From: Pseudomonas triclosanedens
GTDB taxonomy: Bacteria > Pseudomonadota > Gammaproteobacteria > Pseudomonadales > Pseudomonadaceae
Direction: 5' to 3'
DNA: 64,000 nt
Assembly: GCF_026686735.1 (NCBI RefSeq)
Contig: NZ_CP113432.1
Coordinates: 1,984,001-2,048,000 of the forward strand
The position numbers and the translations under genes were made by a program. This document shows, piece by piece, positions 208-16,188 of this stretch (position 1 is its first letter; every line of letters starts with the position of its first letter). The notes beneath the pieces were generated by a model that made no database searches, was not told the origin of the DNA, and saw nothing but the letters and a program-made list of their open reading frames with translations.

Positions 208-1047
208 GTGGCGGATATGTTTGGTCGGGGGGGGCGCTTGTTCAATTGTTTCACACCAGCCTGCCGTCGAACGCTGATCGACCGTGCAGAACTGACTCTC
301 TCGCTGGCCAGGCGAGAGGTCGAATCCCGCTATCACGGTGCGATGCTCGGAAGGCTCTGGGTGTTTCTCGCGCCGTTCCTCATGCTGATGGTCTACACCT
401 TCGTCTTCGGCCACATCCTCAGGGCCCGTTGGGGGGCTGCCCAGGACAACACCTCATTCGCCCTCACGCTGTTCGCCGGTCTGCTGCTTAACGGCATGTT
501 CGGTGAAAGCCTGTCCCGAGCCGCCGTGGTCATGCACAACCACAGCAACTATGTGAAGAAGCTGGTCTTTCCCACAGAGGTATTACCGCTGTCATTGGTC
601 GCGGCCTCACTGGTCAATTCCGGTATTGGCTACTTGATCATTGTCGTAGCCATGCTCCTGCTGAATCACCCGCCAGGCCTGTGGGTGGTATTCCTGCCGC
701 TGTCGCTCCTGCCATTTCTCCTGTGCGTAACAGGGCTGACGTTCATGATCGCTGCATTCGGCGCCTATTTCCGCGACGTCAACCAGATCGTGCAGTTCCT
801 GCTGGTGTTGCTGCTGTTCCTCAGCCCGGTGCTCTATCCAATGACCTCGCTGCCGGAAGATGTGCGCCATTACCTCCTGCTCAATCCACTGACCATTCCG
901 GTCGAGATGGTACGTGCGCTTCTCTTCGGCACGCCGATGCCGCCCACCGCACAGATTGCCGCCTACAGCCTGGCATCCGTGTTGCTCCTGATATGCGGAG
1001 TCTGGTTGTTCCTGCGAGTAAGAGGCGGTTTTGCCGATGTGCTCTGA
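208..1047 (+). CDS. wzm: ABC-2 type polysaccharide export permease (Wzm/TagG family)
   Basis: This 279-residue protein is the membrane half of an ABC exporter for a lipid-linked surface polysaccharide such as O-antigen. An N-terminal cytoplasmic stretch with the motif SRYHGAMLGRLW, typical of this family, is followed by about six hydrophobic segments (roughly 48-70, 80-100, 128-150, 160-185, 190-210 and 250-272). The start is GTG at 208, with AAGGG ten bases upstream; ATG at 217 is an alternative. Its ATPase partner (Wzt-like) is not adjacent but lies 14 kb downstream at 14,941. The stop is only 22 bases before gspE, so the permease is probably co-transcribed with the secretion genes. A run of eight G (227-234) falls in codons 7-9. 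Confidence 0.85.
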   Translation: MADMFGRGGRLFNCFTPACRRTLIDRAELTLSLARREVESRYHGAMLGRLWVFLAPFLMLMVYTFVFGHILRARWGAAQDNTSFALTLFAGLLLNGMFGESLSRAAVVMHNHSNYVKKLVFPTEVLPLSLVAASLVNSGIGYLIIVVAMLLLNHPPGLWVVFLPLSLLPFLLCVTGLTFMIAAFGAYFRDVNQIVQFLLVLLLFLSPVLYPMTSLPEDVRHYLLLNPLTIPVEMVRALLFGTPMPPTAQIAAYSLASVLLLICGVWLFLRVRGGFADVL

Positions 1048-1069
1048 TGCAGTCATGGAGGCCGGCAAG

Positions 1070-2755
1070 ATGGATCTGCTTGGGCAGCGCCTGATATGCA
1101 AGGGGTTGGTCAGCGAGCAGGAGATCGAACGTGCTCTGGAACTGCAGAGTCGTATCGGCGGGCGTATTGGCGCAATCCTGATGCGCTCCGGAGCAATTTC
1201 CGAAACCGCGCTGTTGGATGTTCTATCCGAACAGTTGCAATTGCCTCTGGTGGGAAGGGATGTGCCCTTGCCTATGCCAACATCGCTGATTTCCCTGCTC
1301 GAGAGCTCGCCGATACGGATCGATTGGCTAATCGCCGAACAAGTGGTGCTCTGGGAGGATGGCGACACAGTGCTGATCGCGGCACGAGACCCTCTGGAGC
1401 CCTCATTGCGTGAAGTGCTGCGGCAGTTTTTCCCAGAGCGGCGGCTGCAAGGAGTGCTGAGTCGCTCCCAGGATCTCGATGCGTGGCTGCAGGTACTGGT
1501 GGAGCATGTCCAGCGCGAGGGTTGGCGTTCCGGGATATTCGCCGAAGACGATGTTCGCCACTTGCGCGAAATGGCCGAAGAGGCGCCGGTCGTTGAATTG
1601 GTCAATAACATCATCGGGCAAGCCGTCGAGAAGCGCGCGTCGGACATTCACATCGAACCTCGGGAGTTCAGCTTCCACGTGCGTTTCCGTGTCGATGGTG
1701 TACTGCAGGCTCAGTTGACCCTGCCTCGCGAGCGCTTTGCCGCCGTCGTTTCGCGCATCAAACTAATTTCGGCAATTGATATCGCCGAACGCCGCTTGCC
1801 GCAGGATGGTCGGATGACGGTGCGAGTGGGCGGGCAGGAAATGGACATCCGGGTTTCCAGCTTGCCGGGCGTACATGGGGAATCGGTGGTGATGCGCCTA
1901 TTGCCGAAGGTACGCGAAGGGTTGCGCCTGGAAAGCCTGGGCATGCTGCCCGATCATCTGGAGCTGATGCGCGTATGGACGAGTGAGCCACATGGCATTG
2001 TGTTGGTGACCGGCCCTACTGGTTCGGGCAAGTCGACGACTCTCTATGGCGGGTTGGAGTCGATCAATGATGGAGTGCGCAAGATCATCACTGTTGAGGA
2101 CCCAGTGGAATACCAGGTCCCCAACATCACGCAGGTGCAAGCGCACTCGGAGATCGGGCTGACATTCGCCGCGGCCTTGCGCTCCATCCTGCGGCAAGAC
2201 CCTGACGTCATCATGATTGGTGAGATTCGAGACCTGGAAACAGCGGAGATTGCCGTTCAGTCCTCTCTTACAGGTCACCTGGTTTTCTCCACGCTCCACA
2301 CCAACGACGCCGTCAGCGCATTCACGCGCCTCATCGACATGGGGGTCGAACCTTTCCTGGTGGCATCCCCTGTACGAGGTGTACAGGCGCAACGGTTGGT
2401 ACGCAATCTTTGTCAACACTGCTCCCAGCCTCAGCGCCCAGCACTCGATGCGAAGGAACTTGATGCGATCGACGAGGCGGCAAAGAAGCTTTTTCCGCAA
2501 CAGGAAGCGAGGTGGATGAGTGCCTCTGGATGTTCGCATTGCCAGGGCACCGGTTATCGAGGGCGACTTGGCATCTACGAAATGATCGACGTGCTTCCGC
2601 AGATGCAGGAACTGATCATGCAGCGTGCGCCGGTTGAACACATGCGCCGTCTTGCAAGCAGCCAGGGGTTCCGAACGCTGCGCGAGGACGGGTTCATCAA
2701 GGCATGGCTGGGGCTGACGTCAGTTGACGAAGTCCACCGTGTCACCAGTGGATGA
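1070..2755 (+). CDS. gspE: Type II secretion ATPase GspE
   Basis: GspE is the cytoplasmic hexameric ATPase that drives pseudopilus assembly. The 561-residue protein has the N-terminal T2SSE domain, Walker A GPTGSGKST (about residue 315), the Asp box ITVEDPVEY, Walker B DVIMIGEIRD (about 380), the His box STLHTND, and two CxxC pairs (CQHC near 447, CSHC near 487) that form the zinc-binding element of GspE. The open frame extends upstream to TTG 1031, but GGAGG at 1057-1061 sits eight bases before ATG 1070, which I take as the start. It is the first gene of an E-F-G-H-I-J-K-L-M-C-D cluster, and its stop overlaps the gspF start (ATGA). Confidence 0.95.
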   Translation: MDLLGQRLICKGLVSEQEIERALELQSRIGGRIGAILMRSGAISETALLDVLSEQLQLPLVGRDVPLPMPTSLISLLESSPIRIDWLIAEQVVLWEDGDTVLIAARDPLEPSLREVLRQFFPERRLQGVLSRSQDLDAWLQVLVEHVQREGWRSGIFAEDDVRHLREMAEEAPVVELVNNIIGQAVEKRASDIHIEPREFSFHVRFRVDGVLQAQLTLPRERFAAVVSRIKLISAIDIAERRLPQDGRMTVRVGGQEMDIRVSSLPGVHGESVVMRLLPKVREGLRLESLGMLPDHLELMRVWTSEPHGIVLVTGPTGSGKSTTLYGGLESINDGVRKIITVEDPVEYQVPNITQVQAHSEIGLTFAAALRSILRQDPDVIMIGEIRDLETAEIAVQSSLTGHLVFSTLHTNDAVSAFTRLIDMGVEPFLVASPVRGVQAQRLVRNLCQHCSQPQRPALDAKELDAIDEAAKKLFPQQEARWMSASGCSHCQGTGYRGRLGIYEMIDVLPQMQELIMQRAPVEHMRRLASSQGFRTLREDGFIKAWLGLTSVDEVHRVTSG

Positions 2756-3951
2756 CTGCGATGCGGATGCATTACGTCGCGATCGACCGAAGTGGCAAAC
2801 AATGCAAGGGAGAGGTGAACGCCACCTCGCGTGCCGACGGCCTTCGTCAACTGGAAGCACAGGGGCTGACCGCACTTCGACTGGAGCAGACCACCCGAAC
2901 TGTCGTCGGCCGCAACCGCCGGTTGCGGGCGGAGGAGCTCAATCTGGCTCTCTATGAGTTGGCGACGCTGCTTGCGGCAGGCGTCAGCCTTGCCGAAGCG
3001 GTTGAGGCGCAGGAGCGTTCTGCGCAGCACCCGCGAATCGCAGCGGCGTTGCGGTCGATAGGGGAAGGGTTGCGGCAAGGGCAGCCTTTCCCTCAGGTCC
3101 TGGAGGCCGCTGGTTTGCCCTTGCCTCGATATGCCTACCAATTGGTTGCTGCCGGAGAAATGACCGGAAACCTGGCGACTGCTCTGCGCGATTGCGTATC
3201 GCAGATGGAGTACGAAAGGCGAACCCGCGACGAGATCCGCAATGCGCTCATCTATCCCGCGATTCTGGTTCTGAGCGGTATTGGTGCGGTGGCGATGATG
3301 TTCGTCTTCGTCGTCCCCAAGTTCGCCAATCTGCTGGAGCATGCCGACCGCCTGCCGTGGCTGGCCTGGGCGGTGCTCAGTAGTGGCGTCTGGTGCAAGG
3401 AGAATGCAGTGCTGCTGCTGGTGATGCTGGTGATTGCCAGCACCCTCGGCGTCTCGTTGGCCAAAAGTCCACGCGTGCGCTCAAGGGTCTTGAGTGGCCT
3501 GTTGCATGTGCCGCTGCTGGGGGACTGGTTGCTGCAGGCAGAAATAGCCCAGTGGTCGAAGGTTCTCGGGACGTTGCTGGGAAATCGCGTCGCATTGGTT
3601 GATGCGTTGCGGTTGTCGGCGGAGGGGGTGCGCATCCCAACCCAGCGCGAGTTGCTGGAGCGAGTGACCCAGGATGTGCGAGGAGGCGCCGCGTTGTCGT
3701 TGGCGTTGGAGAACCGTCAGGCGATCACCGCAACAGGAGGCAATCTGGTTCGGGTAGGAGAGAAGTCCGGGCGGCTGGCCGACATGCTCGACAGCCTAGC
3801 CGAGTTGTATGAGGAACAGGGGCGGTCGCGCATGCGCAAGGTACTCGCGCTGGTGGAGCCCTTGGCGATCCTGCTGATTGGTGGGATTTTCGGCGTGATC
3901 ATTACGGGAGTGGTGCTGGCGATAACCAGCGCCAACGACATTGTTCTATGA
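2752..3951 (+). CDS. gspF: Type II secretion inner-membrane platform protein GspF
   Basis: GspF is the polytopic inner-membrane core that couples the ATPase to pseudopilin assembly. The 399 residues contain two T2SSF repeats. Each has the motif-rich cytoplasmic helical bundle (for example ELATLLAAGVSLAEAVEA and the copy KVLGTLLGNRVALVDAL). Hydrophobic segments lie near residues 165-190, 215-235 and 370-395. The start ATG 2752 overlaps the gspE stop; ATG 2761 and 2767 are alternatives in the same frame. A 47-base gap precedes gspG. Confidence 0.95.
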   Translation: MTAMRMHYVAIDRSGKQCKGEVNATSRADGLRQLEAQGLTALRLEQTTRTVVGRNRRLRAEELNLALYELATLLAAGVSLAEAVEAQERSAQHPRIAAALRSIGEGLRQGQPFPQVLEAAGLPLPRYAYQLVAAGEMTGNLATALRDCVSQMEYERRTRDEIRNALIYPAILVLSGIGAVAMMFVFVVPKFANLLEHADRLPWLAWAVLSSGVWCKENAVLLLVMLVIASTLGVSLAKSPRVRSRVLSGLLHVPLLGDWLLQAEIAQWSKVLGTLLGNRVALVDALRLSAEGVRIPTQRELLERVTQDVRGGAALSLALENRQAITATGGNLVRVGEKSGRLADMLDSLAELYEEQGRSRMRKVLALVEPLAILLIGGIFGVIITGVVLAITSANDIVL

Positions 3952-3998
3952 GGCGGTGACACGCCTGCCCGCAAATATCGATAGAAGACGAGGATTGT

Positions 3999-4433
3999 AT
4001 GTCCAAGCGTGCTCAGCAGGGCTTCACCTTGCTGGAAATGATCGTGGTGCTGGTGATCATCGGTTTACTGATGGGATTGGTTGGGCCTCGGCTGTTCAGG
4101 CAGGCAGACAAGGCCAAGGTCCAGACCGCCGAAACTCAAGTGAAGATGCTCAAGGGAGCACTGATGACCATGCGCCTGGATATTGGTCGATTACCCACCG
4201 AACAGGAAGGTCTGGCACTGCTCAACGCACCACCTGCGGATGAGCGGATCAAGAGCTTCTGGAAGGGCCCCTACCTGGAAGGAGGCGTTCCCCTCGATCC
4301 CTGGAACCATCCGTACAACTACAGCGACAAGCCGAGCCTCGACCAGCCATTCGTACTGTACAGCTTGGGGGCGGACGGCCAGCCCGGAGGAGATGGGGAC
4401 AATGCGGATATCGGCTACCTGCCCAGACGATGA
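3999..4433 (+). CDS. gspG: Major pseudopilin GspG
   Basis: This is the 144-residue main subunit of the periplasmic pseudopilus. The class III leader MSKRAQQG is followed by FTLLEMIVVLVIIGLL, with cleavage after Gly8 and Glu at +5, as expected for a prepilin peptidase substrate. The C-terminal half carries the GspG hallmark PLDPWNHPY and an acidic GADGQPGGDGDNADIGY loop corresponding to the calcium-binding site of major pseudopilins. No prepilin peptidase gene (gspO) lies in the locus, so processing probably depends on PilD/XcpA encoded elsewhere. Confidence 0.95.
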   Translation: MSKRAQQGFTLLEMIVVLVIIGLLMGLVGPRLFRQADKAKVQTAETQVKMLKGALMTMRLDIGRLPTEQEGLALLNAPPADERIKSFWKGPYLEGGVPLDPWNHPYNYSDKPSLDQPFVLYSLGADGQPGGDGDNADIGYLPRR

Positions 4434-4812
4434 GCGTCAGGGTGGGTTCACGTTGCTAGAGATGATCGTGGTACTTGCGCTGGTGGCGCTGCTCGGTGCG
4501 GTGGTGATGCCCAGTCTTCTGAAGATGCAGCAGGCGTGGCAGCGCCGCTTGGATATCCAGAATGTGATGGCGCAGATCCGTAGCCTGGGATACCGGGTAC
4601 GGCTGGCTGGCCAGCCAGCGGCATTCGGACCGGCAGGCATCATGCCGAGTGATCTTCTATCGATGCCGGCGGGCTGGGAGGTTGGCGCGGCGTCGCCGCT
4701 GATCTACTTGGCCAATGGTGCCTGCCTCGGCGGCGAACTGATCCTACGGCACGATGAGGCGATCGAACACATTACGTTGCCGGCTCCGCTATGCCAGCCA
4801 GCGACTCCATGA
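4402..4812 (+). CDS. gspH: Minor pseudopilin GspH
   Basis: This 136-residue minor pseudopilin carries the leader MRISATCPDDERQGG followed by FTLLEMIVVLALVALLGAVV, so it should be processed after Gly15. The frame is open further upstream, but ATG 4402, preceded by GGAGG at 4386-4390, gives a leader of sensible length. The gene overlaps the end of gspG by 32 bases. GspH sits at or near the pseudopilus tip complex with I, J and K. The rest of the protein is poorly conserved, as usual for the family, so the assignment rests on the prepilin motif and the position between G and I. Confidence 0.9.
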   Translation: MRISATCPDDERQGGFTLLEMIVVLALVALLGAVVMPSLLKMQQAWQRRLDIQNVMAQIRSLGYRVRLAGQPAAFGPAGIMPSDLLSMPAGWEVGAASPLIYLANGACLGGELILRHDEAIEHITLPAPLCQPATP

Positions 4813-5252
4813 TGAGCAGCCGCAGCGTGCAGTCGGGCTTCACTCTGCTGGAGGCGGTGGTCGCTATGACACTGCTGGTGATCGTGGGGGGAGCGCTACT
4901 GGCCTGGCTCAATACGGGATTTCACAGCGTCGAGCGAATGGCGGCGGTGCAGTACAGGATCGATGCCTCGCGGGTTGCGTTGGCACATCTGGAGCGCATC
5001 AACCCGCTCGCTCAGCCGACTGGAAGCGTTCGTCTGGGACCGTACCTGCTGGAGTGGAAGAGCCAGCCTCTGACATCGCCAATGCCGGTAGTTGGGCGCT
5101 ACAGCGGTAATCCCGGGCCCTATGACGCTGTGCTGTTTCGCGTCGAGGCGCGAATTGGTGAGGAGGGTCACGAGGAGGTTCCGTTGTTTCTGGAGTTGCC
5201 GGGGTATCAGCAGGTACGCAGTGCACAGGATCAGGGAGTGGGCGGGGTGTGA
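4809..5252 (+). CDS. gspI: Minor pseudopilin GspI
   Basis: This 147-residue minor pseudopilin has the leader MMSSRSVQSG followed by FTLLEAVVAMTLLVIVGGAL, with Glu at +5. ATG 4809 overlaps the gspH stop in an ATGA arrangement and gives a ten-residue leader; ATG 4791 in the same frame would lengthen it by six. GspI nucleates the tip complex with GspJ and GspK. The stop overlaps the GTG of gspJ, in keeping with tight translational coupling through the cluster. Confidence 0.92.
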   Translation: MMSSRSVQSGFTLLEAVVAMTLLVIVGGALLAWLNTGFHSVERMAAVQYRIDASRVALAHLERINPLAQPTGSVRLGPYLLEWKSQPLTSPMPVVGRYSGNPGPYDAVLFRVEARIGEEGHEEVPLFLELPGYQQVRSAQDQGVGGV

Positions 5253-5839
5253 AGCTGCGGCACTTGAGGGGGTTCACTCTGTTGGAGTTGCTGGTTGTAC
5301 TGGTGCTGACTTCGTTCATCACCGTTCTGCTCATGCAAGGGATGGCCTATGTCGCCAAGGTCAACGAGACCTTTCTTCTCGAAGGGCAGCAACGCCAGGC
5401 ACGTGAGTTGGTCTTTGGCTGGTTCATCGACTCTGTGGCGGCCATATCTGCACCAGAGCGGGGCGGCGGCAGTGGGCGCTTTCGAGGCGATGCAAAGAGC
5501 TTCGAAGCTGTAACGCTCGCTAGCGTGGACCGTCGCGAGGGCGTCCCCGTGGCCTTTGCATTCCGACTCGATGCGACAAGGGATGCCCCCACCCAGGATG
5601 CCGATCTGGTCTATGTGCGCCGACTGGAAGCGAACCGCTGGCCACTACTGCAACTCCCGGGGGATGCGCAGTTCGAGTATCTGGATTCGTTGGGAGCATG
5701 GCATGAGAACTGGCCGCCATCCTCGGCGCTGGTGGATTCTCTGCCTGAGGCGGTGGCCTTGTCATCGAAGCGAGAACAATTGTTCCTGTTGGCCACTGTG
5801 CAGTCACCCCGGCGCAGGTTGTCCGTCGATGATCATTGA
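5249..5839 (+). CDS. gspJ: Minor pseudopilin GspJ
   Basis: This 196-residue minor pseudopilin starts at GTG 5249, overlapping the gspI stop as GTGA. The leader MKLRHLRG is followed by FTLLELLVVLVLTSFITVLL, with Glu at +5. The remainder matches the size and loose pattern of GspJ, a tip-complex subunit binding GspI and GspK. The gene overlaps gspK by about ten bases. Confidence 0.92.
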   Translation: MKLRHLRGFTLLELLVVLVLTSFITVLLMQGMAYVAKVNETFLLEGQQRQARELVFGWFIDSVAAISAPERGGGSGRFRGDAKSFEAVTLASVDRREGVPVAFAFRLDATRDAPTQDADLVYVRRLEANRWPLLQLPGDAQFEYLDSLGAWHENWPPSSALVDSLPEAVALSSKREQLFLLATVQSPRRRLSVDDH

Positions 5840-6854
5840 GCGTATGGCAGTGGCTAGACGGGGCTCACAGGGTTTTGTCCTCGTGGGGGTGATCTGGTTT
5901 CTCGCCTGCATGACCTTGGTGGTGACTGCCGCCATGCTCTGGATCGATCGCTCAAGAGATGGTTTGGTGGCGCAGCAAACTCTGCTTCAGCGCTGTTTCG
6001 AAGAGCGTACCTTGTTGAGTCGGCTGACCTGGCTGATCGCCACGCACCGTATGACCGTGGCGGGCCAGACCACTGCGGAGAGTCTTGCGGCGCAAGTCGG
6101 TGAGATGGATCCCTCGATCCTTCCTGCGGGGGCCGAGATTCCCGTGGACGGGCGTGAGTACTGCCTTGCCAATGGCGCCTGCATAACACTGATCGACCGT
6201 GCCTCGCGCATAAGTCTCACATCCAGCGAGCCTGCGGCTATCTCCTCTCTGTTGGTCAGTCTCGGAGTACCGGTGGAAGACGTTCCTCGAATGTTGGTGG
6301 ACTTGGCTGCATACCTGCGGGATGGAAGCACTCAAACAGTGAGTGCGCGTCACCTGCGTTCTGTCATGGAAGTCTTTGTCTTGGCGTCCTGGCGTCCCTG
6401 GGAGAGCCGACTGGTGACGTCAGGCTGGAATGATAGGGTGGCCATTGATGAGGCCGCTCTGAATCTGAACACGGCGGGATCGGATGTCCTGTTGCGCGCA
6501 TGGCGCTTGTCACCGGGTGGAGTTTCCCGCTTGCTGATGGCGAGGCAGGAGCACCCCATAATTCAGCGCGTGGACGTGGATGAGCTATTGGGTACGGAGG
6601 CGGAATCCCTTCCTCAGGAAGGCTGGTCACGCTTGCCTAGTTCGGTGCTGATGATCCGCATGCGATTTCGCTCCAGCGTGATTCGCTACGAATACGAAGT
6701 GAGTTTCGAGTCCACCGATATGCGTTTGCCTCCGTGGCAATTTTTACAACGAAGGACCTTGTCGATAGATGCTCCTGAATCAAACGCTGCAACTCAGATT
6801 CATACAACGCCTGGCGTACTCGCAGCCCCGCTTGTGGCAGGTCCTTGGGGATGA
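5829..6854 (+). CDS. gspK: Large minor pseudopilin GspK
   Basis: GspK caps the pseudopilus. The 341-residue product is the large pseudopilin and has the leader MIIERMAVARRGSQG followed by FVLVGVIWFLACMTLVVTAAM. As in other GspK proteins, the +5 position is not Glu. The body contains the helix-hairpin-helix-like segment LNLNTAGSDVLLRAW typical of the family. ATG 5829 overlaps the gspJ stop; ATG 5844 is an alternative. The 3' end overlaps gspL by 86 bases, an unusually long overlap for this cluster. Confidence 0.92.
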   Translation: MIIERMAVARRGSQGFVLVGVIWFLACMTLVVTAAMLWIDRSRDGLVAQQTLLQRCFEERTLLSRLTWLIATHRMTVAGQTTAESLAAQVGEMDPSILPAGAEIPVDGREYCLANGACITLIDRASRISLTSSEPAAISSLLVSLGVPVEDVPRMLVDLAAYLRDGSTQTVSARHLRSVMEVFVLASWRPWESRLVTSGWNDRVAIDEAALNLNTAGSDVLLRAWRLSPGGVSRLLMARQEHPIIQRVDVDELLGTEAESLPQEGWSRLPSSVLMIRMRFRSSVIRYEYEVSFESTDMRLPPWQFLQRRTLSIDAPESNAATQIHTTPGVLAAPLVAGPWG

Positions 6855-7866
6855 CGGGGGGCCAGTGCTCGAATGGTCCGATTCGCCTCGGGGAGTCTGG
6901 GGAAACCTCGCAGCGCAATGGATCATTGAGCGATCACAGTGCCTCTATCGCTGCGTGGATCTGAAGCATGTGCCCAGAGGGCAGCGTGCCCGGGCGTTGG
7001 CTCTGAAACTGGGGAGCCTGTCGCCGTATCGCCACTCAGGACATTACGCGGTGTGGCGCGGTGGTTCAGTCCTGCTGTGGATGTGGGATGGGGAGCGACA
7101 ACAGGCGCTCGCGCATTCGAGCGTAACCGTGCCCAGACGCTATCGCTGCATTCCGGAACCACTTCTGCTGCCGCCCCCAACTGACCAGGCAGGTTTCGTA
7201 GGACGGATTTTAGCGACCAGGTGCGGGTTCGACCTGCAGGTATGGAGTTCCGGCTGTCTGTTGTTCAGCAGCTTCCATCGCACGTTGCCGTCCAAACAAG
7301 ACATCAATTTCGCCCTTCGCAGCATCTCTGGCTCAGAGTGGACCGCCTATCCGGAGGTCGAGACCATCGAATCCAGCACACGTCCGTGGGCATATTCGGG
7401 CTCGACTGGCAGGGGCGCGCAGTGGGAGCGCTGGCTACCTCACGCGGTGTTCTCGATAGTGATGCTGGGGTGCTCCTTTCAGCTTTCCCAGGGGGCGAGC
7501 TGGTGGTGGGCCGAACATAGCCTGGAGCGCGAAAGTGCGGCACTGAGCTCCCGTATTGAACCATTGCTCGATGCCAGGAATCGTGCGGAGCAGGCTCGCT
7601 CGGATGCTCAACTACTGAGCCAACGCATGCGAGCAGCCCCCTCTCAGATCGAAATGCTGCGGACTCTGCATGGCTTGCTTCCAGACGACAGCAAACTGCT
7701 GAACTGGCGTTATCGGGGTAACGAGTTGGAACTGCTCATCGATACACAGAATTCGGATCCAAGATTCTTCGTGCAGCGACTACAGCGGGACGGGCACTTC
7801 CAAAATGTGCGGGTCGAACCCTCATCCCGCGGGGATGGGTTGCAGTTGAGCATGACCTTAAGATGA
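6769..7866 (+). CDS. gspL: Type II secretion protein GspL
   Basis: GspL is a bitopic inner-membrane protein that links GspE to the periplasmic parts. The 365 residues comprise a cytoplasmic actin-like region (1-220), one hydrophobic segment near 222-242 (VFSIVMLGCSFQLSQ), a periplasmic coiled coil rich in Glu, Arg and Ala, and a ferredoxin-like C-terminal domain. Sequence conservation is low, so the call rests on topology, length and position between gspK and gspM. ATG 6769 lies inside the gspK frame; no closer start with a good ribosome site was seen. Confidence 0.85.
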   Translation: MLLNQTLQLRFIQRLAYSQPRLWQVLGDDGGPVLEWSDSPRGVWGNLAAQWIIERSQCLYRCVDLKHVPRGQRARALALKLGSLSPYRHSGHYAVWRGGSVLLWMWDGERQQALAHSSVTVPRRYRCIPEPLLLPPPTDQAGFVGRILATRCGFDLQVWSSGCLLFSSFHRTLPSKQDINFALRSISGSEWTAYPEVETIESSTRPWAYSGSTGRGAQWERWLPHAVFSIVMLGCSFQLSQGASWWWAEHSLERESAALSSRIEPLLDARNRAEQARSDAQLLSQRMRAAPSQIEMLRTLHGLLPDDSKLLNWRYRGNELELLIDTQNSDPRFFVQRLQRDGHFQNVRVEPSSRGDGLQLSMTLR

Positions 7867-7876
7867 GAAACTGCCA

Positions 7877-8473
7877 ATGAACGAGCTCAGGTTGGCGTCG
7901 CGCCATCAATGGCTGCGCCTGGTGCAGCAATGGCAGGACCAGCGGCGCCTAAGGTTCGCCTGCTGGTTGATCATGGCGCTGCTGGGTGCTCATGGGGTCG
8001 CTCTATGTAGCGACTGGCGGCAATCACAGCGATTGGGCTACCAGAGTGCTGAAACCAATCTCGGCAAGATGAAAGCGCTGGCCAGCCAATCCTATTGGCT
8101 GGATCGTGCTGTTCAGGCGGAGGACCTGTTGGCGAAGTTGAATGCGCAATTGTGGCAGGCACCGAATGCTTCGCTGGCTCGCGCCGACGTCCAGGCATGG
8201 CTCGATGTGCAGGTGAAGCAGGCTGGCATTCCTGAGCCCCGGATCAACGTACTACCGCCGCTGGAGTTTTCAGCAGAAGGACAGGATGCGCGCATCGAGG
8301 TCCAACTGCGCGGCGGCTTCGAGCCCAGTAGTTATGGAAGGCTTCTGCAGGCTCTGGAAAGTACGTCGCAATGGGTCAGCATTGATGCAGCGGAGGTGAG
8401 CAACGGTGTCACTCCGGCGATCAATCTTCAGCTGGCATTTCATTTTCGCAGTGGAACGCAGTCTCTTCCTTAG
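7877..8473 (+). CDS. gspM: Type II secretion protein GspM
   Basis: This 198-residue single-pass protein has a short cytoplasmic N-terminus, a hydrophobic segment around 28-46 (FACWLIMALLGAHGVAL), a coiled-coil-like periplasmic stretch and a small C-terminal domain that includes IEVQLRGGFEPSSYGRLLQAL, as in GspM proteins. GspM pairs with GspL at the inner membrane. It follows gspL by ten bases. A gap of about 160 bases, holding no recognisable gene, separates it from the GspC-like gene. Confidence 0.85.
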   Translation: MNELRLASRHQWLRLVQQWQDQRRLRFACWLIMALLGAHGVALCSDWRQSQRLGYQSAETNLGKMKALASQSYWLDRAVQAEDLLAKLNAQLWQAPNASLARADVQAWLDVQVKQAGIPEPRINVLPPLEFSAEGQDARIEVQLRGGFEPSSYGRLLQALESTSQWVSIDAAEVSNGVTPAINLQLAFHFRSGTQSLP

Positions 8474-8635
8474 TCGGGCGGCGCTGGCCCAGTCGTCGTG
8501 CGGTGCGACTTTGCACCACAATCTACAGAAGTTTCCTTCAAAGCAGCGGCCAGATACTGAGTTGGTCCGGTGACAAAATCAGAGCCCATCTGATCATCGT
8601 GGTCAGACTTGGCTAACTGCTTCCGATGGCGTCCG

Positions 8636-9118
8636 ATGGCCCCGCTCAAGCTTATTCGTTTTTACGTCCTGTTGGGCTGTGCCGGTATCGCTGCCGGCCT
8701 GTTGCTCCAGCCCCACCCTCGATTAGATGTTGACGCTAGTGCGGATGTCGAGGAGTGGGCACTACCCTCAGTTCTCTCTCGATCCCTCAATGGCACAGCG
8801 GCTTCGGAGCTGGGTGCTTTGTCGTGGTGGGCAAACCCTGATCCCCCTCCGTCGAATGCCCAGGCTTCTGAAAGCGCTTCGGGCGTGACAAAGCTCAAGG
8901 TGGATTGGTTCTTCCACGGCGTCATCGCGGTTGGCGCGAAGCGCTTCGCACTGGTGGCCAAAGACTTGTCTTCGCCCGTTGAGCGCTTTGCCGTTGGTGA
9001 TCAATTGCCCGGAGGTGAGCGGCTGGAGAGCATTGGTCAACAGGGTATCCGTTTCTCATTGTCGCAAGACAGGCAGGACAAGGATTTTGAAAGGAAACTC
9101 TATGCTCCCGTTGAATAA
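8636..9118 (+). CDS. gspC: GspC-like inner-membrane clamp protein (short form)
   Basis: This protein of about 160 residues has an N-terminal membrane anchor (FYVLLGCAGIAAGLLL), a Pro/Ser/Ala-rich linker and a domain matching the HR region of GspC: FHGVIAVGAKRFALVA, then VERFAVGDQLPGGERLESI. GspC binds the N0 domain of the secretin and connects the two membranes. Compared with usual GspC (about 270-300 residues) there is no PDZ or coiled-coil end, so substrate-recognition parts are missing. Its place just before gspD corresponds to XpsN in the Xps-type order. The frame opens at TTG 8609; I prefer ATG 8636, though neither start has a strong ribosome site. Confidence 0.75.
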   Translation: MAPLKLIRFYVLLGCAGIAAGLLLQPHPRLDVDASADVEEWALPSVLSRSLNGTAASELGALSWWANPDPPPSNAQASESASGVTKLKVDWFFHGVIAVGAKRFALVAKDLSSPVERFAVGDQLPGGERLESIGQQGIRFSLSQDRQDKDFERKLYAPVE

Positions 9119-11423
9119 GGCTTTTCCCCCATTCCCCCCACAAGCATTGCTGCTTGCCTTGTGCCTGGCTGTCAACGCCGGTTGTACCACCGAGTCACTT
9201 TCCTTCCCATCGCCGTTGGTGGCGTCTGCGGAAAAGCCGAGAGCCGACGAGAGTACGGTAGGCAATGGTCGCGAGAGCGCCTCGGTGAGCGGCTCTGGTT
9301 TATCCAGAGGGCCGACGATAGCCGCCACACCTGCACCTGAAAGGGTACCTACCGGGGGATTGGTCGACAGGACGGATCGGCTCGTGCTGGATGACAAGGC
9401 AGCAGATATCACGGTGAATGTAGAAGATGTAACACTCCCGGCGTTCATCAACGAAGTATTCGGTAACGTGCTAGGGCTGCCGTTTGAAATAGACAATGCA
9501 CTGAAGAACAAGACAGATCGCGTCACGTTGCGGCTGCAACAGTCTCAGACCCGGCAGACGGTATACAACATTGCTTCTCAGGTCATGACCAACTACGGGA
9601 TCGAGATTGCCAGGCAGGGTGGTGTACTTAGGTTCCAGATCAAGCAACTGGGGTTGAGCCCTGATGAGCCACCAATACTCATCAGTGGTGACGCAAGGCC
9701 GGACGTGCCGATTTCGTATAGGCCTGTCTTCCAGTTTGTTCCCCTGCACAACGTTGATCCCAAGGATGTCATCCCCTGGCTGAACAGTGCATACGAAAAA
9801 TCCGGTCTGAATGCCAATGCCGACGGCGCACGCGGCGGATTGATGCTCAAAGGGATGTCATCGATCGTCAGTCAGGCGGCTCAGGCCGTCGAGTTGCTGG
9901 ATAGGCCATTCATGAGGGGGCAGAACAGCCTTCGTATCGACCCGGCATTCATTACGTCCGAAAGTCTGGCCAAGCAACTGAAAGAGCTGCTCGCGGCCCA
10001 GGGTTATAGCGTGGGCATCGGCGAGGCATCTGGCAGCGTTGTTCTGGTTCCTCTGGAAAGCTCCAACGGCCTGATCGTCTTTTCTAGCCAGCAAGCGCTA
10101 TTGAATCTTGTGAGGGATTGGGCGGGGCAGGTTGATCGCGCTCCGTTGACTAGTGCGGTCGGTGAAGGTGATGGCTCGGAGAGAGAGGGGTTGTTCTTCT
10201 ATGAGGCGCGCAATACGCGAGCCAGTGAGCTTGCAAAATCGTTGCGCTCATTGGTGTCGGGGCTGAACGCTCCTGGAGGAGCCTACGGCCTGACACCCGA
10301 TTTGGCCGGGGGGGCTTCCCGTCGTGCTTCGGCCAATAGCCCTCCGCCGTTCCGTTCCCCCCAGGATCGTGGAAACTCTGATATGGGGGGGGGCAATGGC
10401 TCTTCCGGATTGTCACCACTTCTGCGGCTGGCAGGGACGCAAGCCTTGTTAGGTAGCGGGGAGAGTGGCTCGCTGATGGACAGCCTGGCCTCCAGTGTGG
10501 CTGGCAGCGGTACGATCGTCGAAGATGAAAACCGCAACGCCATTCTGTTCCGTGGACCAGGGCGAGTGTGGCAACAGATGCAGCCGCTGCTTCGTCAATT
10601 GGACAAGCCGGCACGACAGGTTCTGATTGAGGTCACTATTGCCAGCGTAGACCTGGTAGACAACCAGAGCGTCGGATTTTCCTGGGCATTTCTGGATGGG
10701 CATGCGGATAGTGGCCCTGGCTTTTCCAGGGAAATCTCAGGTAATTCGAAGACCGGTTTCACATATATGATCAATACGGCGGGTGGAGCGATGGCCGCCC
10801 TGAATGCCTTGGCAACGGACTCTCGATCCAGAATTCTTGCGACTCCCCGTGTAATGGTTAAGAGCGGTGAGCAGGCAAATATCAATGTTGGTACGGATAT
10901 TCCAGTAGTCACTGGGCAGCAGAATGACAATAGTAGTACTGGAGGGACTTCCAACATTCTTCAGAGTATTTCCTACCGGTCTACAGGGGTAATCCTGAAT
11001 GTATCGCCAGTTATTTATTCGAATAACCGAGTGGATCTGACGGTAAGTCAGGAAGTTAGCTCCTCTGGTGCGAATGGCGGTGGAGGTAGTGGAGGATCAA
11101 CGGGAAGCTTGACGCCTAGTATAACCAGGACTTCCTTGGAGACGGCCCTGACGTTACAAAGTGGAGGGTCCATCTTTATGGGGGGGTTGATTCGTGAGAA
11201 TGGCGATGATGGAAACGATGGGGTTCCATTTCTCAAGGATATACCAGGCATCGGATATCTGTTTGGTGCAAGAAATTCCAATAAATCTAAAAGTGAAGTT
11301 GTTATGTTGATTCAGCCGTACATAATCGAAGGGGCTGAGGATGCAAGAGAAATAACAGAAAAACTCCGCCAGATGGTTGAACCTGGTCTCGGTTGCAGCA
11401 AGGTTCCAGGCTCGTGTGGCTGA
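9102..11423 (+). CDS. gspD: Type II secretion secretin GspD, probable lipoprotein
   Basis: GspD forms the outer-membrane channel. The 773-residue protein starts at ATG 9102 (AAGGA seven bases upstream) and overlaps the gspC stop. The signal peptide ends ALCLAVNAGC, so Cys29 may be lipidated, as in the self-piloting secretins HxcQ and XpsD; Asn at -3 makes the lipobox imperfect. N0 lies near residues 95-175, followed by N1-N3 repeats. A Gly/Ser-rich linker spans about 387-466, and the secretin core about 510-745 with VPFLKDIPGIGYLFG. Three G-runs (10308-10314, 10385-10393, 11180-11186) fall inside the gene. A strong terminator follows. Confidence 0.95.
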   Translation: MLPLNKAFPPFPPQALLLALCLAVNAGCTTESLSFPSPLVASAEKPRADESTVGNGRESASVSGSGLSRGPTIAATPAPERVPTGGLVDRTDRLVLDDKAADITVNVEDVTLPAFINEVFGNVLGLPFEIDNALKNKTDRVTLRLQQSQTRQTVYNIASQVMTNYGIEIARQGGVLRFQIKQLGLSPDEPPILISGDARPDVPISYRPVFQFVPLHNVDPKDVIPWLNSAYEKSGLNANADGARGGLMLKGMSSIVSQAAQAVELLDRPFMRGQNSLRIDPAFITSESLAKQLKELLAAQGYSVGIGEASGSVVLVPLESSNGLIVFSSQQALLNLVRDWAGQVDRAPLTSAVGEGDGSEREGLFFYEARNTRASELAKSLRSLVSGLNAPGGAYGLTPDLAGGASRRASANSPPPFRSPQDRGNSDMGGGNGSSGLSPLLRLAGTQALLGSGESGSLMDSLASSVAGSGTIVEDENRNAILFRGPGRVWQQMQPLLRQLDKPARQVLIEVTIASVDLVDNQSVGFSWAFLDGHADSGPGFSREISGNSKTGFTYMINTAGGAMAALNALATDSRSRILATPRVMVKSGEQANINVGTDIPVVTGQQNDNSSTGGTSNILQSISYRSTGVILNVSPVIYSNNRVDLTVSQEVSSSGANGGGGSGGSTGSLTPSITRTSLETALTLQSGGSIFMGGLIRENGDDGNDGVPFLKDIPGIGYLFGARNSNKSKSEVVMLIQPYIIEGAEDAREITEKLRQMVEPGLGCSKVPGSCG

Positions 11424-11447: not shown

Positions 11448-11472
11448 AAGGGGGGGCTTCGGCCCCTTTTTT
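11448..11472 (+). terminator. Rho-independent terminator after gspD
   Basis: GGGGC (11453-11457) pairs with GCCCC (11462-11466) around a TTCG tetraloop. AAGG lies before the stem and six T follow it. This ends the permease-T2SS transcript and separates it from the following secreted-protein gene. Confidence 0.85.
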
Positions 11473-11589
11473 GTGGCTGGGATAAACTGCCTGGAGTTCT
11501 GGTGAGGTTCTACTTGGTGGTTGCTTGTAGGAATTTTTACATGTACAGGTAGGTTATTTCTTTGTTTTCATTTTGATGTGGTGAGTAAG

Positions 11590-11619: not shown

Positions 11620-11891
11620 GCCAGTGGAATCGATGTGCAGTACTGGCGTTGATTTTATGTTGCTCCGATCCAGTGGGATTTGGTGGTGAGTGATAAAAAT
11701 GACATTTCTCTCCTGAGTCCGGGTTGATTTCGAGATGGAAGGGTTGGCAGTTGGCCAGCTGCGAGTCTTGATGAAATCTCGGATCGAGTGGGTTTCACAG
11801 CTCGACTTGTGGGGAACGAGATGTTGCGCGTCGGCGGATTGGTGCTGGCGAAATATACATGACTAGTCGAAATACTGGAGTTAACCTTAAT

Positions 11892-13718
11892 ATGTTGAAG
11901 AAAACTCTGCTGGGCGCCGCCATTGCTTCCGCAATGTTTGCTGGTGCTGCAAATGCCGGTGTGGTTAATATCATCGTTGGTGCAAGCTCCAACGCGTCTG
12001 TTACCCAGAACTCTCCGGGTGAAATCAATCAGTATGCTTCGGGGCAGGCAAATTATGTGCCCGGCTCCAGTATTGAAACCGGTGCAAGCTATGGAAGCCG
12101 CGCGGCGAACATCACCATCGCCCAGGAGATCTTTGGCAACCTTTCCGAAAGCACCCAGTTCGATCTGCCTGATTTGGACTACGCAATTGATCCTGCCAAG
12201 GCAGTCAACGCGGCTGTGGGGCATACCATTAAGCTGACATTGGATCGTACCGTAGCCCAGTTTGCCAATGTCATCTCGGCTAACCAGATCCAAATCGGTA
12301 CCCTCCCTGCCGGTACCGGCTTCACTATCACCTCCGGTATTGGCATCAACACCCTGAGCCTGACTCTGGACGCCGCTGGTGCGGCAGAGATCCAACAGGC
12401 ATCTGTAGCCAACCCGGCTCACGGCATTGTTCACTTCCTGTTCCGCACCAATGGTTCCACCAGTTCCGCACCTGCGAAGATTGACCATTTGCGTGCTGCG
12501 TTGCAGGGCGATGCTACATTTGTAGCTCAGTCCTTCAACCCAAATGTCAGTCTGCTGAGTGATCCGCTGAACGAGCGTCGTTTCGAGGTGACCGTATCGG
12601 CTCAGTTGGATACCACTACAGGTGCCAACGCACTGAATGCGATCAATAACGACTCGGCGGCTCCGTTCCTTGTCTTTACCTCGCTTCCTGCCGTCTATTG
12701 GGATGTACTGAATACCAATAGCTGGGGTTCATATCAGGTTCTGAACTCGTTGAACCTGGCCAATCAGGACAAGAACTTCGACCCGAACGTCTCGGTTCAG
12801 GCTGGTGCAAGCGACCCCGCGAACTACGGTGCTAACTTCCAGAGGCTTGGATCTATTCGCCTGGGGGTCAACCCCGATGTACTGAACGAAGATGGTCGTA
12901 ACATCTTCGGCTTCAACGGCAGTGATAAAATCTCCAGCTATATCTCTGGTAACTTCGCGGGCGTATCTTCTATCGCTCTGGTGAACAATAGTTGTTCCTC
13001 GTATGCCAACGGCAATACTACCGCTGCATATTCGTGGGATGCCGCCGCTATTACTAAAGCAACCGGATCCGATGGAGTAGCGAAACTGTCGGTGGAACTC
13101 AAGAATGCGGATGTCAACCAAACCTATAACATCTGCGCCGTTGCCAGCGGTACCAGCGCAATGGCTGCCCAGCAAACCTTCAATGTTGGTCCGTTGCGCG
13201 TTGACTTCGGTAACGTCCGTTATGTAGACCGCGTTATTAATGGTGGGCAGATCGACCACTTCTGGAAAAGTAGCTGTGTTGCGAGTTTGTTCAACCTGCC
13301 AGCCGGAAATAATCAGGATGCCTTCTTCGTTCGCTTGACAAATACCAGCGATGATGGCCGCTCCGGTAAGGTTCGTGGTGTTCTCTATGACCAGAATGGC
13401 AAGCGTTATCCGGCTACCGGAAGTGCCTACATCGTAGATAGCAGCGGTAAAGCCACGCTTAAGGCGCACGAGACCGGTGTGTACAGTGTCAAAGAGGTTG
13501 CCAGTGCGTTTGGCGTGAATGGCAATGACTGGAATGGCGTTAACGGTCGTGCACGTCTGATCATGGAAGGTGAATTCCCAACCTGTGAGGCCCTGGGGCT
13601 CATCCGTACTCCTAACGGCACTCTGGTGAATATGACCTCCACTACTCAGGGTAACTTTAATGGTAATTCAGGTCCGTCTACTACCGTGAATCATGAGGCT
13701 GGCAATAATCGTAACTAA
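11892..13718 (+). CDS. Secreted 608-residue protein, candidate S-layer-like T2SS substrate
   Basis: I do not recognise a family with certainty. The start is ATG 11892, with GGAG eleven bases upstream. It gives a perfect Sec signal peptide, MLKKTLLGAAIASAMFAGAANA, cleaved before GVVN; the frame extends 11 codons further up. The mature chain is rich in Asn, Ser, Thr, Ala and Gly, poor in Cys (about residues 367, 414, 461 and 564) and Lys, and has beta-like alternation and no hydrophobic helix after the signal. Codon choice is biased to GGT/CGT-type codons, suggesting high expression. The gene stands alone between two strong terminators, right after a complete T2SS and before glycan genes. An abundant surface-layer protein or other secreted structural protein is my best inference. 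Confidence 0.6.
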   Translation: MLKKTLLGAAIASAMFAGAANAGVVNIIVGASSNASVTQNSPGEINQYASGQANYVPGSSIETGASYGSRAANITIAQEIFGNLSESTQFDLPDLDYAIDPAKAVNAAVGHTIKLTLDRTVAQFANVISANQIQIGTLPAGTGFTITSGIGINTLSLTLDAAGAAEIQQASVANPAHGIVHFLFRTNGSTSSAPAKIDHLRAALQGDATFVAQSFNPNVSLLSDPLNERRFEVTVSAQLDTTTGANALNAINNDSAAPFLVFTSLPAVYWDVLNTNSWGSYQVLNSLNLANQDKNFDPNVSVQAGASDPANYGANFQRLGSIRLGVNPDVLNEDGRNIFGFNGSDKISSYISGNFAGVSSIALVNNSCSSYANGNTTAAYSWDAAAITKATGSDGVAKLSVELKNADVNQTYNICAVASGTSAMAAQQTFNVGPLRVDFGNVRYVDRVINGGQIDHFWKSSCVASLFNLPAGNNQDAFFVRLTNTSDDGRSGKVRGVLYDQNGKRYPATGSAYIVDSSGKATLKAHETGVYSVKEVASAFGVNGNDWNGVNGRARLIMEGEFPTCEALGLIRTPNGTLVNMTSTTQGNFNGNSGPSTTVNHEAGNNRN

Positions 13719-13738
13719 TAAATAGTTCTGATGAATTG

Positions 13739-13767
13739 AAAGAGGCGGCTTTTGTCGCCTCTTTCCT
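13739..13767 (+). terminator. Strong rho-independent terminator after the secreted protein gene
   Basis: AAAGAGGCG (13739-13747) pairs perfectly with CGCCTCTTT (13756-13764) around an eight-base loop. It lies 20 bases after the stop codon and isolates the gene from the glycan cluster. Confidence 0.9.
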
Positions 13768-13811
13768 TGTTTGTATTTTGCTCTATGGTGTTAGCTTGAG
13801 GTCATGGTGAG

Positions 13812-14933
13812 ATGAAGTTTAGGAGAATGGCCGTAGTTTCCAATCAAGCTTTCTCTATTGTTAATTTTCGTAGAGAGTTGATTAAAGATATCGTATCTAG
13901 TGGTGTCATGGTCTTTGCCTTTGCTCCTGATTACAATGATGAGTTAGTACGAGCGGTCAAGGAAATTGGAGCGATTCCTGTCAGTGTCGAAATGGATCGG
14001 GTGGGAGTGAACCCAATCCAAGCAATAAGGACTGTCTTGGGGTTGGTTAGAGCTATCCGTGATCTTGAAATAGATGCAGTGCTGAGTTATTTCACTAAGC
14101 CTGTAATTTATGGAGGTTTGGCCGCGAGATTCTCAGGAGTCGACAGTATCTACTCCTTCATTGAGGGGGCTGGTTATGTCTATGCTGATGGGGTTGGGTC
14201 TACCCGCCGGGTTATACTTAGGAAGTTTATTAGTTTTCTCTACCGACTTAGTCTTAGCTTTTCTTCTCGAGTGTTTTTGCTTAATAGGGATGACTACTCA
14301 TTGTTTGTTGGTGGTGGTCTCGTTAGGGCAGAGAAGGCAATTCTATTACCCGGCATAGGTTTGGATCTGGATAGGTTCAATGAGCAGACTCCAGTTGTTT
14401 CTCCTGTGGTATTTACTTTCTTGGGTCGATTGCTTCGCGAGAAGGGTGTGATCGATTTTGTCTCTGCGGCAAGAATTATTAAAAATAAGCACCCTGAGGT
14501 GGTTTTTTTGATAGTTGGTGATGTCGATGTCAATCCAGGCTCTATTGGCATAGAAGATCTAAAGGCATGGGGCGAGGAAGGGCTTGTTACTTGGGTTGGT
14601 CATGTTGCCGATGTACGCCCCTGGCTTGCAGAAACTAGTGTGCTTGTCCATCCGTCCTATTATCGAGAAGGTATTCCTAGGTCTATTCAAGAGGCTATGG
14701 CAAGTGGTCGTCCGGTAATAACAACGGACTCTGTTGGGTGTCGCGAAAGTATTGAGGATACAGTTAACGGATTTCTGGTTCCGATCCGTAGTCCGGAAAG
14801 CATAGCTCGCGCAATGGAAAGATTTATAGCTGAGCCGGAACTTATAGTTGAAATGGGGCGCCAGAGTAGACGGCTGGCCGAATTGAGATTTGATGTTCGC
14901 GAAATAAACGAAATGGTGATGGCGGTTTTTTAG
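13812..14933 (+). CDS. Glycosyltransferase, GT4 family (GT-B fold)
   Basis: The 373-residue protein has the GT4 pattern. An N-terminal Rossmann half (VVSNQAFSIVNFRRELI, LSYFTKPVIYGGLAARFSG) is followed by the donor half with FLGRLLREKGVIDFVSAA near residue 200 and SYYREGIPRSIQEAMASGRPVI near 280-300, which holds the EX7E-type acidic residues. It resembles transferases that add the first N-acetylhexosamine units in O-antigen synthesis, but donor and acceptor cannot be read. This gene and the next are clearly AT-richer than the rest of the window, suggesting separate acquisition. It is the first gene of the distal glycan operon. Confidence 0.85.
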   Translation: MKFRRMAVVSNQAFSIVNFRRELIKDIVSSGVMVFAFAPDYNDELVRAVKEIGAIPVSVEMDRVGVNPIQAIRTVLGLVRAIRDLEIDAVLSYFTKPVIYGGLAARFSGVDSIYSFIEGAGYVYADGVGSTRRVILRKFISFLYRLSLSFSSRVFLLNRDDYSLFVGGGLVRAEKAILLPGIGLDLDRFNEQTPVVSPVVFTFLGRLLREKGVIDFVSAARIIKNKHPEVVFLIVGDVDVNPGSIGIEDLKAWGEEGLVTWVGHVADVRPWLAETSVLVHPSYYREGIPRSIQEAMASGRPVITTDSVGCRESIEDTVNGFLVPIRSPESIARAMERFIAEPELIVEMGRQSRRLAELRFDVREINEMVMAVF

Positions 14934-14940
14934 CTTTCAG

Positions 14941-16188
14941 GTGTTTAAGGTGATGCTTGATAGTTCTGGTGTTGCTGTTCGTGCTGTTCGGGTTGGAAAG
15001 TGCTTTCAGGTATTCGATAGCCCTGGTAGACGTTTTCTGTATTCACTGTTTGCAGGAAAAATAAACCTCCAAAGAGAATTCTGGGCAGTTCGCGATGTTA
15101 GTTTTGATATATATCGCGGAGAGGTCGTGGGGGTGATTGGGCGGAATGGTAGTGGTAAGTCAACATTACTGCAGATGATTGCTGGAACTCTATCTCCAAA
15201 TTTCGGCTGGGTTGGTCGGAGTGGACGAGTAGCTGCGCTTTTAGAGTTGGGCGCTGGTTTTGATGTCGAAGAGACGGGAAGAAGAAATATAGAGTTTACC
15301 GCCAAGTTGCTTGGGTTGAGTTCGTCTGATGTCAAGAGTCGTGTTGAGTCGATAATAGATTTTTCTGGAATCGAAGATTTTATTGATAGGCCTGTTAAGA
15401 CATATTCTAGCGGAATGATTGTGCGCTTGGCGTTTGCAGTTGCCGCTCATGTCGATGCGGACATTGTTGTTGTGGACGAGGCGTTGGCAGTTGGAGATGC
15501 AGAGTTTCAGTTCAAATGTTTGAGTAGGTTGGATCAGTTGTTGAGTCGTGGCGTCACGGTGATTTTGGTTTCCCATGATTTGCAGTTGGTGAAATCCTAT
15601 TGTCAAAGAGTTCTGTATTTACGGTCTGGACGTCTTGTGTTCGATGGAGACTGTGAGTCAGGTTGTGAGGAGTATCAAAGAGATAGTGCTTCGAAGTTGT
15701 TTTTCTCCTCAGTTGGTGCCCCCTCTGGAACTGCAAGGGAGTCACAAGATTTATCAGGTGAAGCGGGGCAGATAATTAGTGCTGTGTTAGCAGGTGATGG
15801 AGGGGGTAGAGGATTTTTTGTCTCTGGTGAGTATGTGCATGTTGATGTGGTTGCACAAATATCCAAGTCGGTTCTTCGGCCTAGAGTTACTTTGGTTGTC
15901 AGGGATATTAGGGGCTACAATCTATATGCCATAAATAATTCGCAGTTGGGCTGCGACTTGGTAGTGGGTTGTAATGGTTTTTTTCAGGTTCGCTTTGGTT
16001 TTATTGCTGACCTTCAGGACGGTACCTATGCAGTTACAGTTCGGCTTGATGATGCTGTATCTGAAGGCGCTTTTTGTTCGATTGACAAGAAAGTTGGTGC
16101 TTTGACTTTTCGTGTTGAAAGCCCACAGAAGAAATTCGATGCTGTAGTCAATCTGCATGGAACAATTGAGGTTCTGTCTTTTTCATGA
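14941..16188 (+). CDS. wzt: ABC exporter ATPase with C-terminal carbohydrate-binding domain (Wzt-like)
   Basis: This is the 415-residue ATPase of the polysaccharide ABC exporter. Walker A GRNGSGKST lies near residue 67, the signature-like YSSGM near 155, Walker B IVVVDEAL near 173, and the H-loop VSHDLQLV near 205. Residues about 260-415 form a beta-rich extension corresponding to the Wzt C-terminal domain, which in the E. coli O9a system recognises a capped non-reducing glycan end. That implies a specifically terminated glycan here. The frame opens at GTG 14941; ATG 14953, preceded by CAGGTG, is an alternative. Its membrane partner is the permease at 208-1047, separated by the T2SS. The stop overlaps the next start (ATGA). 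Confidence 0.92.
   Translation: MFKVMLDSSGVAVRAVRVGKCFQVFDSPGRRFLYSLFAGKINLQREFWAVRDVSFDIYRGEVVGVIGRNGSGKSTLLQMIAGTLSPNFGWVGRSGRVAALLELGAGFDVEETGRRNIEFTAKLLGLSSSDVKSRVESIIDFSGIEDFIDRPVKTYSSGMIVRLAFAVAAHVDADIVVVDEALAVGDAEFQFKCLSRLDQLLSRGVTVILVSHDLQLVKSYCQRVLYLRSGRLVFDGDCESGCEEYQRDSASKLFFSSVGAPSGTARESQDLSGEAGQIISAVLAGDGGGRGFFVSGEYVHVDVVAQISKSVLRPRVTLVVRDIRGYNLYAINNSQLGCDLVVGCNGFFQVRFGFIADLQDGTYAVTVRLDDAVSEGAFCSIDKKVGALTFRVESPQKKFDAVVNLHGTIEVLSFS

Follow-up and report, generated by a model that had tools for sequence, protein, structure and literature searches.

A window of 64,000 nucleotides (1984001-2048000 of the 6.2-Mb single-contig genome of Pseudomonas triclosanedens, G000:C1) contains an island of about 25 kb, in which the genes of a type II secretion system (T2SS) and the gene of a putative surface-layer (S-layer) protein, slp, lie between wzm and wzt, the genes for the permease and the ATPase of an ABC-type polysaccharide exporter. 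The content and order of the genes, their conservation and co-occurrence, the codon adaptation and the predicted fold are best read as a T2SS that is dedicated to an S-layer-type protein and linked to an O-polysaccharide exported by the ABC system; we put the probability of this reading at roughly 0.7. A preliminary description of the window had placed a Wzm-like permease and a Wzt-like ATPase on either side of T2SS genes, a secreted-protein gene and a glycosyltransferase gene, and Pfam and TIGR matches, gene order and synteny confirmed this arrangement. The island extends from wzm to a second sulfotransferase gene (208-25130), and its genes are all on the + strand, in the following order (sizes in amino acids, aa; E-values or bit scores in brackets):

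208..1047, +, wzm, ABC-2 polysaccharide exporter permease, 279 aa, GTG start, five hydrophobic segments (PF01061 (ABC2_membrane) 3.3e-25; PF12698 5.5e-8)
1070..2755, +, gspE, T2SS ATPase (PF00437 1.3e-133; TIGR02533 571.7 bits, under the cut-off of 630); start at 1055 or 1070 uncertain
2752..3951, +, gspF, T2SS inner-membrane protein (PF00482 2.2e-49; TIGR02120 246 bits, under the cut-off of 424)
3999..4433, +, gspG, major pseudopilin (TIGR01710 178.9 bits, above the cut-off of 88.85)
4402..4812, +, gspH, minor pseudopilin (N_methyl; TIGR01708 29 bits, under cut-off; order)
4791..5252, +, gspI, minor pseudopilin (N_methyl; order)
5249..5839, +, gspJ, minor pseudopilin (N_methyl; T2SSJ 0.0015, under cut-off)
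5844..6854, +, gspK, minor pseudopilin (order, size, synteny, one hydrophobic N-terminal segment)
6769..7866, +, gspL (order, size, synteny)
7877..8473, +, gspM (T2SSM_b 0.031, under the curated cut-off; syntenic)
8609..9118, +, gspC-like gene, 169 aa, one hydrophobic segment, HR-type domain (T2SSC 0.0024, under the curated cut-off)
9102..11423, +, gspD, secretin with lipobox-like N-terminus (Secretin 7.2e-45; TIGR02517 259 bits, under the cut-off of 351)
11892..13718, +, slp, S-layer-type protein of 608 aa, proposed T2SS substrate (N-terminus like a Sec-type signal by eye; conservation; codon adaptation; predicted fold)
13812..14933, +, gt1, glycosyltransferase (PF13692 1.3e-31)
14941..16188, +, wzt, ABC exporter ATPase with C-terminal Wzt_C (PF00005 (ABC_tran) 1.2e-19; PF14524 1.5e-13)
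16185..17900, +, 571-aa protein with a sulfotransferase-family domain at residues 313-530 (PF13469 3.3e-12)
17967-18701, 18703-19437, 19444-20907, 20889-22118 and 22111-23904, +, five glycosyltransferase genes (glycosyltransferase Pfam matches)
23901..25130, +, second sulfotransferase-family gene (PF13469 4.3e-7)

Matches above cut-off to PF01061, PF00005 and PF14524 identified the exporter as a Wzm/Wzt-type O-antigen exporter, and the Pfam families T2SSE, T2SSF, T2SSG, Secretin and N_methyl, all above cut-off, identified the secretion system. Among the TIGR models, GspG scored above its cut-off, and GspE, GspF and GspD under theirs. At E 10, no Pfam family matched the products of gspK and gspL, which are assigned from position, size and synteny; the GspC-like protein gave no PDZ match. 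The lipobox-like start of GspD is atypical at position -3 and misses a loose lipobox pattern that 104 of 120 GspD relatives among those listed fit; from this start, the secretin looks as if it may target itself independently of a separate pilotin. From wzm to gspD, neighbouring genes are separated by anything from an overlap to 135 bases. The gap of 22 bases between wzm and gspE noted earlier is correct if gspE starts at ATG 1070, with ATG 1055 and other starts also possible. Another Wzm/Wzt pair, mutually adjacent, is located elsewhere in the same genome (L153 6150-7972; G000:C1 near 5772667).

We sampled 25 genomes of the genus, 398 of the family and 369 of the class, and fetched the eight slp-bearing genomes, including our own. 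The slp gene was found in 7 of the 25 genus genomes and in 8 of the 398 family genomes, those seven among them, and the same Slp profile gave partial matches in two other genomes of the 369 in the class. The window-type GspD was present in the identical seven genus genomes and the remaining 18 had neither gene, which supports the earlier suggestion that the T2SS, the secreted protein and the exporter belong together; their independent carriage was not found in the genomes examined. In all eight slp genomes (our own, G014, G023, G004, G003, G001, G015 and G088), wzm adjoins gspE, and the complete order permease-gspE..gspD-slp-wzt is kept in six, our own included. Other species keep this order with proteins that are about 40-90% identical, so the arrangement is not due to chance. 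Close homologues of Slp belong to the named species Pseudomonas schmalbachii, P. nitroreducens, P. jinjuensis, P. delhiensis and P. citronellolis. The glycosyltransferase content varies among the slp genomes, with a full-length fifth glycosyltransferase match only in G014 and G004, and in G014, G004, G003, G001 and G088 slp and gt1 are separated by a gene that we take to be galE-like from its translation.

The two remaining slp genomes have a split island, with the parts retained. In G015, cmk-wzm-gspE-M lies about 2 Mb from gspC-gspD-slp-gt1-wzt-...-rpsA, which could be a misassembly. In G088, a member of another genus, wzm-gspE-...-gspD is on contig C10 and slp-(galE-like)-gt1-wzt, followed by glycosyltransferase genes and a sulfotransferase gene, is on contig C1; both pieces are far from the contig ends, other genes separate cmk from slp, and no rpsA match was found in the surrounding 60 kb. 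The wzm and wzt genes can lie apart.

Slp has an isoelectric point of 5.1 and four cysteines, which are conserved. It gave no match above a cut-off in the domain libraries, and a sequence search of the PDB found no relative (best E 0.91). The codon adaptation index (CAI) was computed against a reference of 27 genes from the ribosomal-protein region, fusA, tuf and rpoA included. The CAI of slp was 0.474 at a third-position GC content (GC3) of 0.57 (z given GC3 = 13.4), compared with 0.195-0.371 (z 0.6-5.7) for the remaining 21 island genes and 0.344-0.833 (z 4.4-20.5) for a core set of 20 window genes, from which one gene of the major facilitator superfamily was left out. Thus, slp is the sole island gene with core-like codon adaptation, which fits an abundant product. 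Terminator-like hairpins were found on each side of slp:

11448..11471, +, hairpin between gspD and slp (fold z -2.2; 6 of 200 shuffles equally good)
13738..13765, +, hairpin 3' of slp with a U-rich tail (fold z -6.4; 0 of 200 shuffles equally good)

These hairpins make it reasonable to regard slp as monocistronic, as had been proposed. The distances are 468 bases from gspD to slp and 93 bases from slp to gt1. A terminator and promoter scan, from whose list the hairpin at 11448-11471 is absent, gave 13 sites against 17.3 in its shuffles and, with fewer sites than random, provides no statistical support. Slp might instead be a secreted adhesin or biofilm-matrix protein that sits on the polysaccharide without an ordered lattice. 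We consider this somewhat unlikely, since slp is codon-adapted and has hairpin boundaries of its own, as a bulk coat protein would require, and since the same layout yields an S-layer in Aeromonas, as far as the available parts of the published accounts go.

Residues 461-589 of Slp are predicted to adopt a TM1070/ASRT-like fold. For the ASRAH superfamily, which comprises TM1070 and the Anabaena sensory rhodopsin transducer, the available part of the source describes a predicted sugar binding, a near-absolute Asn ending strand 2 and a conserved Trp starting strand 1 (PMC2739507). In our domain model, Asn 49, a candidate counterpart of N32 of TM1070, stands at the end of strand 42-49 and does not vary across 26 rows of the alignment. 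The Trp at the start of strand 1 was seen only in those alignment rows that resemble the Pseudomonas proteins closely, and the SHEshChhN His/Cys ligand signature of the ASRT-like family is absent. Fold matches of full-length Slp outside this domain were given little weight because of the low confidence of the model.

From these genes we infer export of Slp by the island T2SS, array formation, the type of glycan, its sulfation and the anchoring of the protein. Slp would cross the inner membrane by Sec, fold in the periplasm, in line with its four conserved cysteines, and leave through a dedicated GspEFGHIJKLM-C-D machine with a self-targeting-like secretin and the short GspC-like protein. Wzm and Wzt, the island glycosyltransferases and the two sulfotransferase-family proteins would make and export an O-polysaccharide, perhaps a sulfated one. 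Slp would then assemble on the cell surface, held to the O-polysaccharide most likely by its predicted TM1070/ASRT-like C-terminal domain. If this is true, Pseudomonas sensu stricto, with its good genetic tools, gains a candidate S-layer together with its own secretion machine, and the coupling of Gram-negative S-layer export to a glycan anchor could be tested in bacteria other than fish pathogens. A glycan-binding role would also be predicted for the one shared C-terminal domain.

Several observations weigh against a dedicated S-layer system. The codon adaptation of slp is core-like, not ribosomal-like (window core, 0.344-0.833), and the structure model of full-length Slp is poor, with a predicted local distance difference test score (pLDDT) of 58. 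Foldseek with the C-terminal domain against the PDB found no match at E <= 0.001, the top ones being a carbohydrate-binding module (0.034) and TM1070 (0.067); the domain is only about 9% identical to TM1070, and the two ASRAH signatures (Trp and SHEshChhN) are absent as conserved features from the Slp domain family. The identity of slp among the genomes (74-87%) is not unusual compared with that of gspG (83-90%) or of gspE and gspF (74-81%). Furthermore, in none of the seven genus slp genomes did we find any GspD above the TIGR02517 cut-off of 351 bits, the window-type GspD itself scoring 256-270 bits, so that the island machine may be the main T2SS and serve other substrates; in our own genome, with four secretin matches, no GspD above this cut-off accompanies the window-type one. 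These secretin data would favour a general-purpose secretion system that exports Slp as an abundant substrate among others, the glycan genes being its neighbours by history. We regard this as quite improbable, because 18 of the 25 genus genomes have neither the window-type GspD nor slp, wzm adjoins gspE in every slp genome, and G088, the only one of the eight with a GspD above the cut-off (at two loci), retains the island T2SS beside both. Whether the island machine is the only T2SS is uncertain for G004 and G014, since each has a further open reading frame (ORF), about 850 aa long, whose secretin match scores 136-139 bits and which lies near a GspE-type ATPase match, in the following regions:

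G004:C22:407028-407822, about 850-aa ORF with secretin match, near a GspE-type ATPase match
G014:C28:56902-57699, about 850-aa ORF with secretin match, near a GspE-type ATPase match

The layout itself is already known, since the wbsalmo locus of A. salmonicida A450, in the available part of its description, has the same nesting of wzm, Sps T2SS genes, vapA and wzt, with a T2SS of its own; a wzt mutant is reported there without O-antigen and a vapA mutant without the A-layer (PMC4483657). The preliminary description had seen an analogy in outline to the Aeromonas loci and had set Pseudomonas apart by its whole T2SS. The parallel exists and was understated, the layout itself being shared, and the supposed contrast was wrong. 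By its genes, the Pseudomonas island is an additional member of this published layout: wzm lies directly before gspE/spsE, the genes follow the order E-F-G-H-I-J-K-L-M-(C/orf2)-D (gspK and gspL by position only), and the surface-protein gene comes last, 468 bases 3' of gspD, between gspD and wzt. An ORF with a sulfotransferase domain is also found 3' of wzt in A. salmonicida, according to the same partial source (PMC4483657). The locus of A. hydrophila AH-1 has, as far as its description is available, a comparable block after a truncated wzm (PMC4413209), with sizes near the Pseudomonas ones for SpsE (551 aa), SpsF (399), SpsG (144), SpsM (198), Orf2 (166) and SpsD (743). It differs in SpsL (252 aa, against 365 aa in the Pseudomonas island), in VapA (469 aa against 608 aa for Slp, compared by size and layout) and in having a complete wzm adjoining wzt in addition to the truncated upstream copy. 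Compared with the available Aeromonas descriptions, the Pseudomonas island has gt1, and in relatives also the galE-like gene, between slp and wzt, lies at a cmk-rpsA site and not at oprM-UDP-ep, and has no rml-type gene that we could recognise.

In the available text, the authors of the A. salmonicida study regarded the block as inserted between wzm and wzt (PMC4483657), and the GC content of our island (0.46-0.61) is below that of most of the remaining window (mostly 0.60-0.67). Both points are in line with an insertion of a T2SS-slp block into an O-antigen cluster, functionally unlinked to the glycan. Such an insertion is unlikely, given that the split in G088 leaves wzm beside the T2SS and wzt beside slp, with the two of them retained, and that wzm and wzt also enclose T2SS genes and a secreted-protein gene, differently ordered, in another gammaproteobacterium, G732.

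Two other published S-layer systems resemble the island in gene context. For the NpdA S-layer of Delftia and Paracidovorax, a gsp cluster lies upstream of the gene of the secreted surface-layer protein, and orthologs are listed for Beta- and Gammaproteobacteria, including Pseudomonas mendocina (PMC10765051); thus, an S-layer gene in a Pseudomonas has already been predicted in print. The available parts of that paper do not mention a wzm/wzt nesting. The Slr4 gene of the marine Pseudoalteromonas tunicata is located next to a T2SS operon regarded as dedicated, in the accessible part of the report (PMC7821379), whose authors took Caulobacter RsaA as the basis for modelling the protein. Among the publications listed in our literature searches, we found no description of the Pseudomonas island, of the split exporter or of the G732 nesting.

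With Slp residues 440-608 as the query, 13 additional proteins were recovered (37-42% identity), of which four are named (two from Cellvibrio, one each from Alteromonas and Ningiella). A domain profile built without those 13 found the domain in secreted proteins of the class genomes G573, G680 and G429 (E 1e-17 to 2e-10, for an assumed database of 1000), which also have a related GspD. In each of G573 and G680, two secreted proteins encoded in tandem share the domain (L085 2-3250; L154 15199-18249) and a GspD of the same clade is on a different contig; in G680, the two domain genes are followed by one gene and then by two sulfotransferase-family genes. In G744, T2SS genes are followed by a gene for a 594-aa secreted protein, with no match to the Slp C-terminal domain by profile, and then by a sulfotransferase gene. 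Sulfotransferase-family genes thus recur by surface-type secreted-protein genes in distant genomes (window 16185-17900 and 23901-25130; L154 12643-14159; L156 13887-14714). In G732 (L181, G732:C42), wzm is followed by gspI-to-D and the gene for a 484-aa secreted protein, then by an acyltransferase-like gene and gspE-F-G-H, with wzt at the end; the C-terminal part of the 484-aa protein aligned with a G680 protein at E 3e-5, and the domain profile gave E 0.42 only. T2SS and secreted-protein genes are therefore nested between wzm and wzt in two lineages here, besides the published Aeromonas.

At the class level, Slp-type matches were found in 6 of 369 genomes and a GspD scoring >380 bits in 8 of 369, with five in common; without our own genome, such a GspD occurred in 4 of 5 Slp-type genomes and in 3 of 363 others. 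We did not rely on a p value for this co-occurrence, because the 380-bit cut-off was picked after the scores were known, at most three candidates were scored per genome per search, three of the shared genomes belong to one family, and the G744 match covers only the N-terminal quarter (7e-4). The match in G636 scored 28.6 bits, without a GspD >380 bits. Possibly, and we suggest this tentatively, T2SS and wzm/wzt form a coat-building cassette that is modular and turns up repeatedly in Gammaproteobacteria, its surface proteins and gene orders varying (published for Aeromonas; found here for Pseudomonas and G732). A C-terminal lectin-like domain common to the surface proteins would read a sulfated O-polysaccharide from the same cassette, secretion and anchoring would be matched as a unit, and selection would keep the parts even after island and exporter split across the genome.

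The island is flanked by the following genes:

L008:17376-18068, cmk, just before the window, left flank
25359..27041, +, rpsA, right flank (rpsA match in E. coli)

As cmk adjoins rpsA in the E. coli record, followed by ihfB, the island separates a pair that is adjacent in E. coli. Upstream of the window are genes that we take to be gyrA, serC, pheA, hisC, tyrA/aroA and cmk from their translations. On the 3' side of rpsA (window 27041-27183), a gene resembling an EamA-type transporter takes the place that ihfB has in the E. coli record. Compared with plasmids, the Slp cluster P0016 (625 members, 63% identical to the window Slp, without NCBI name) gave no match, and the GspD cluster P0068 matched 768 records, none over >80% of the query and all at <60% identity. 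P0068 (1249 members) and P0065 (15 members) are 59-60% identical to the window GspD and bear the NCBI name Pseudomonas aeruginosa, suggesting that some isolates so labelled by NCBI may carry a relative of the island.

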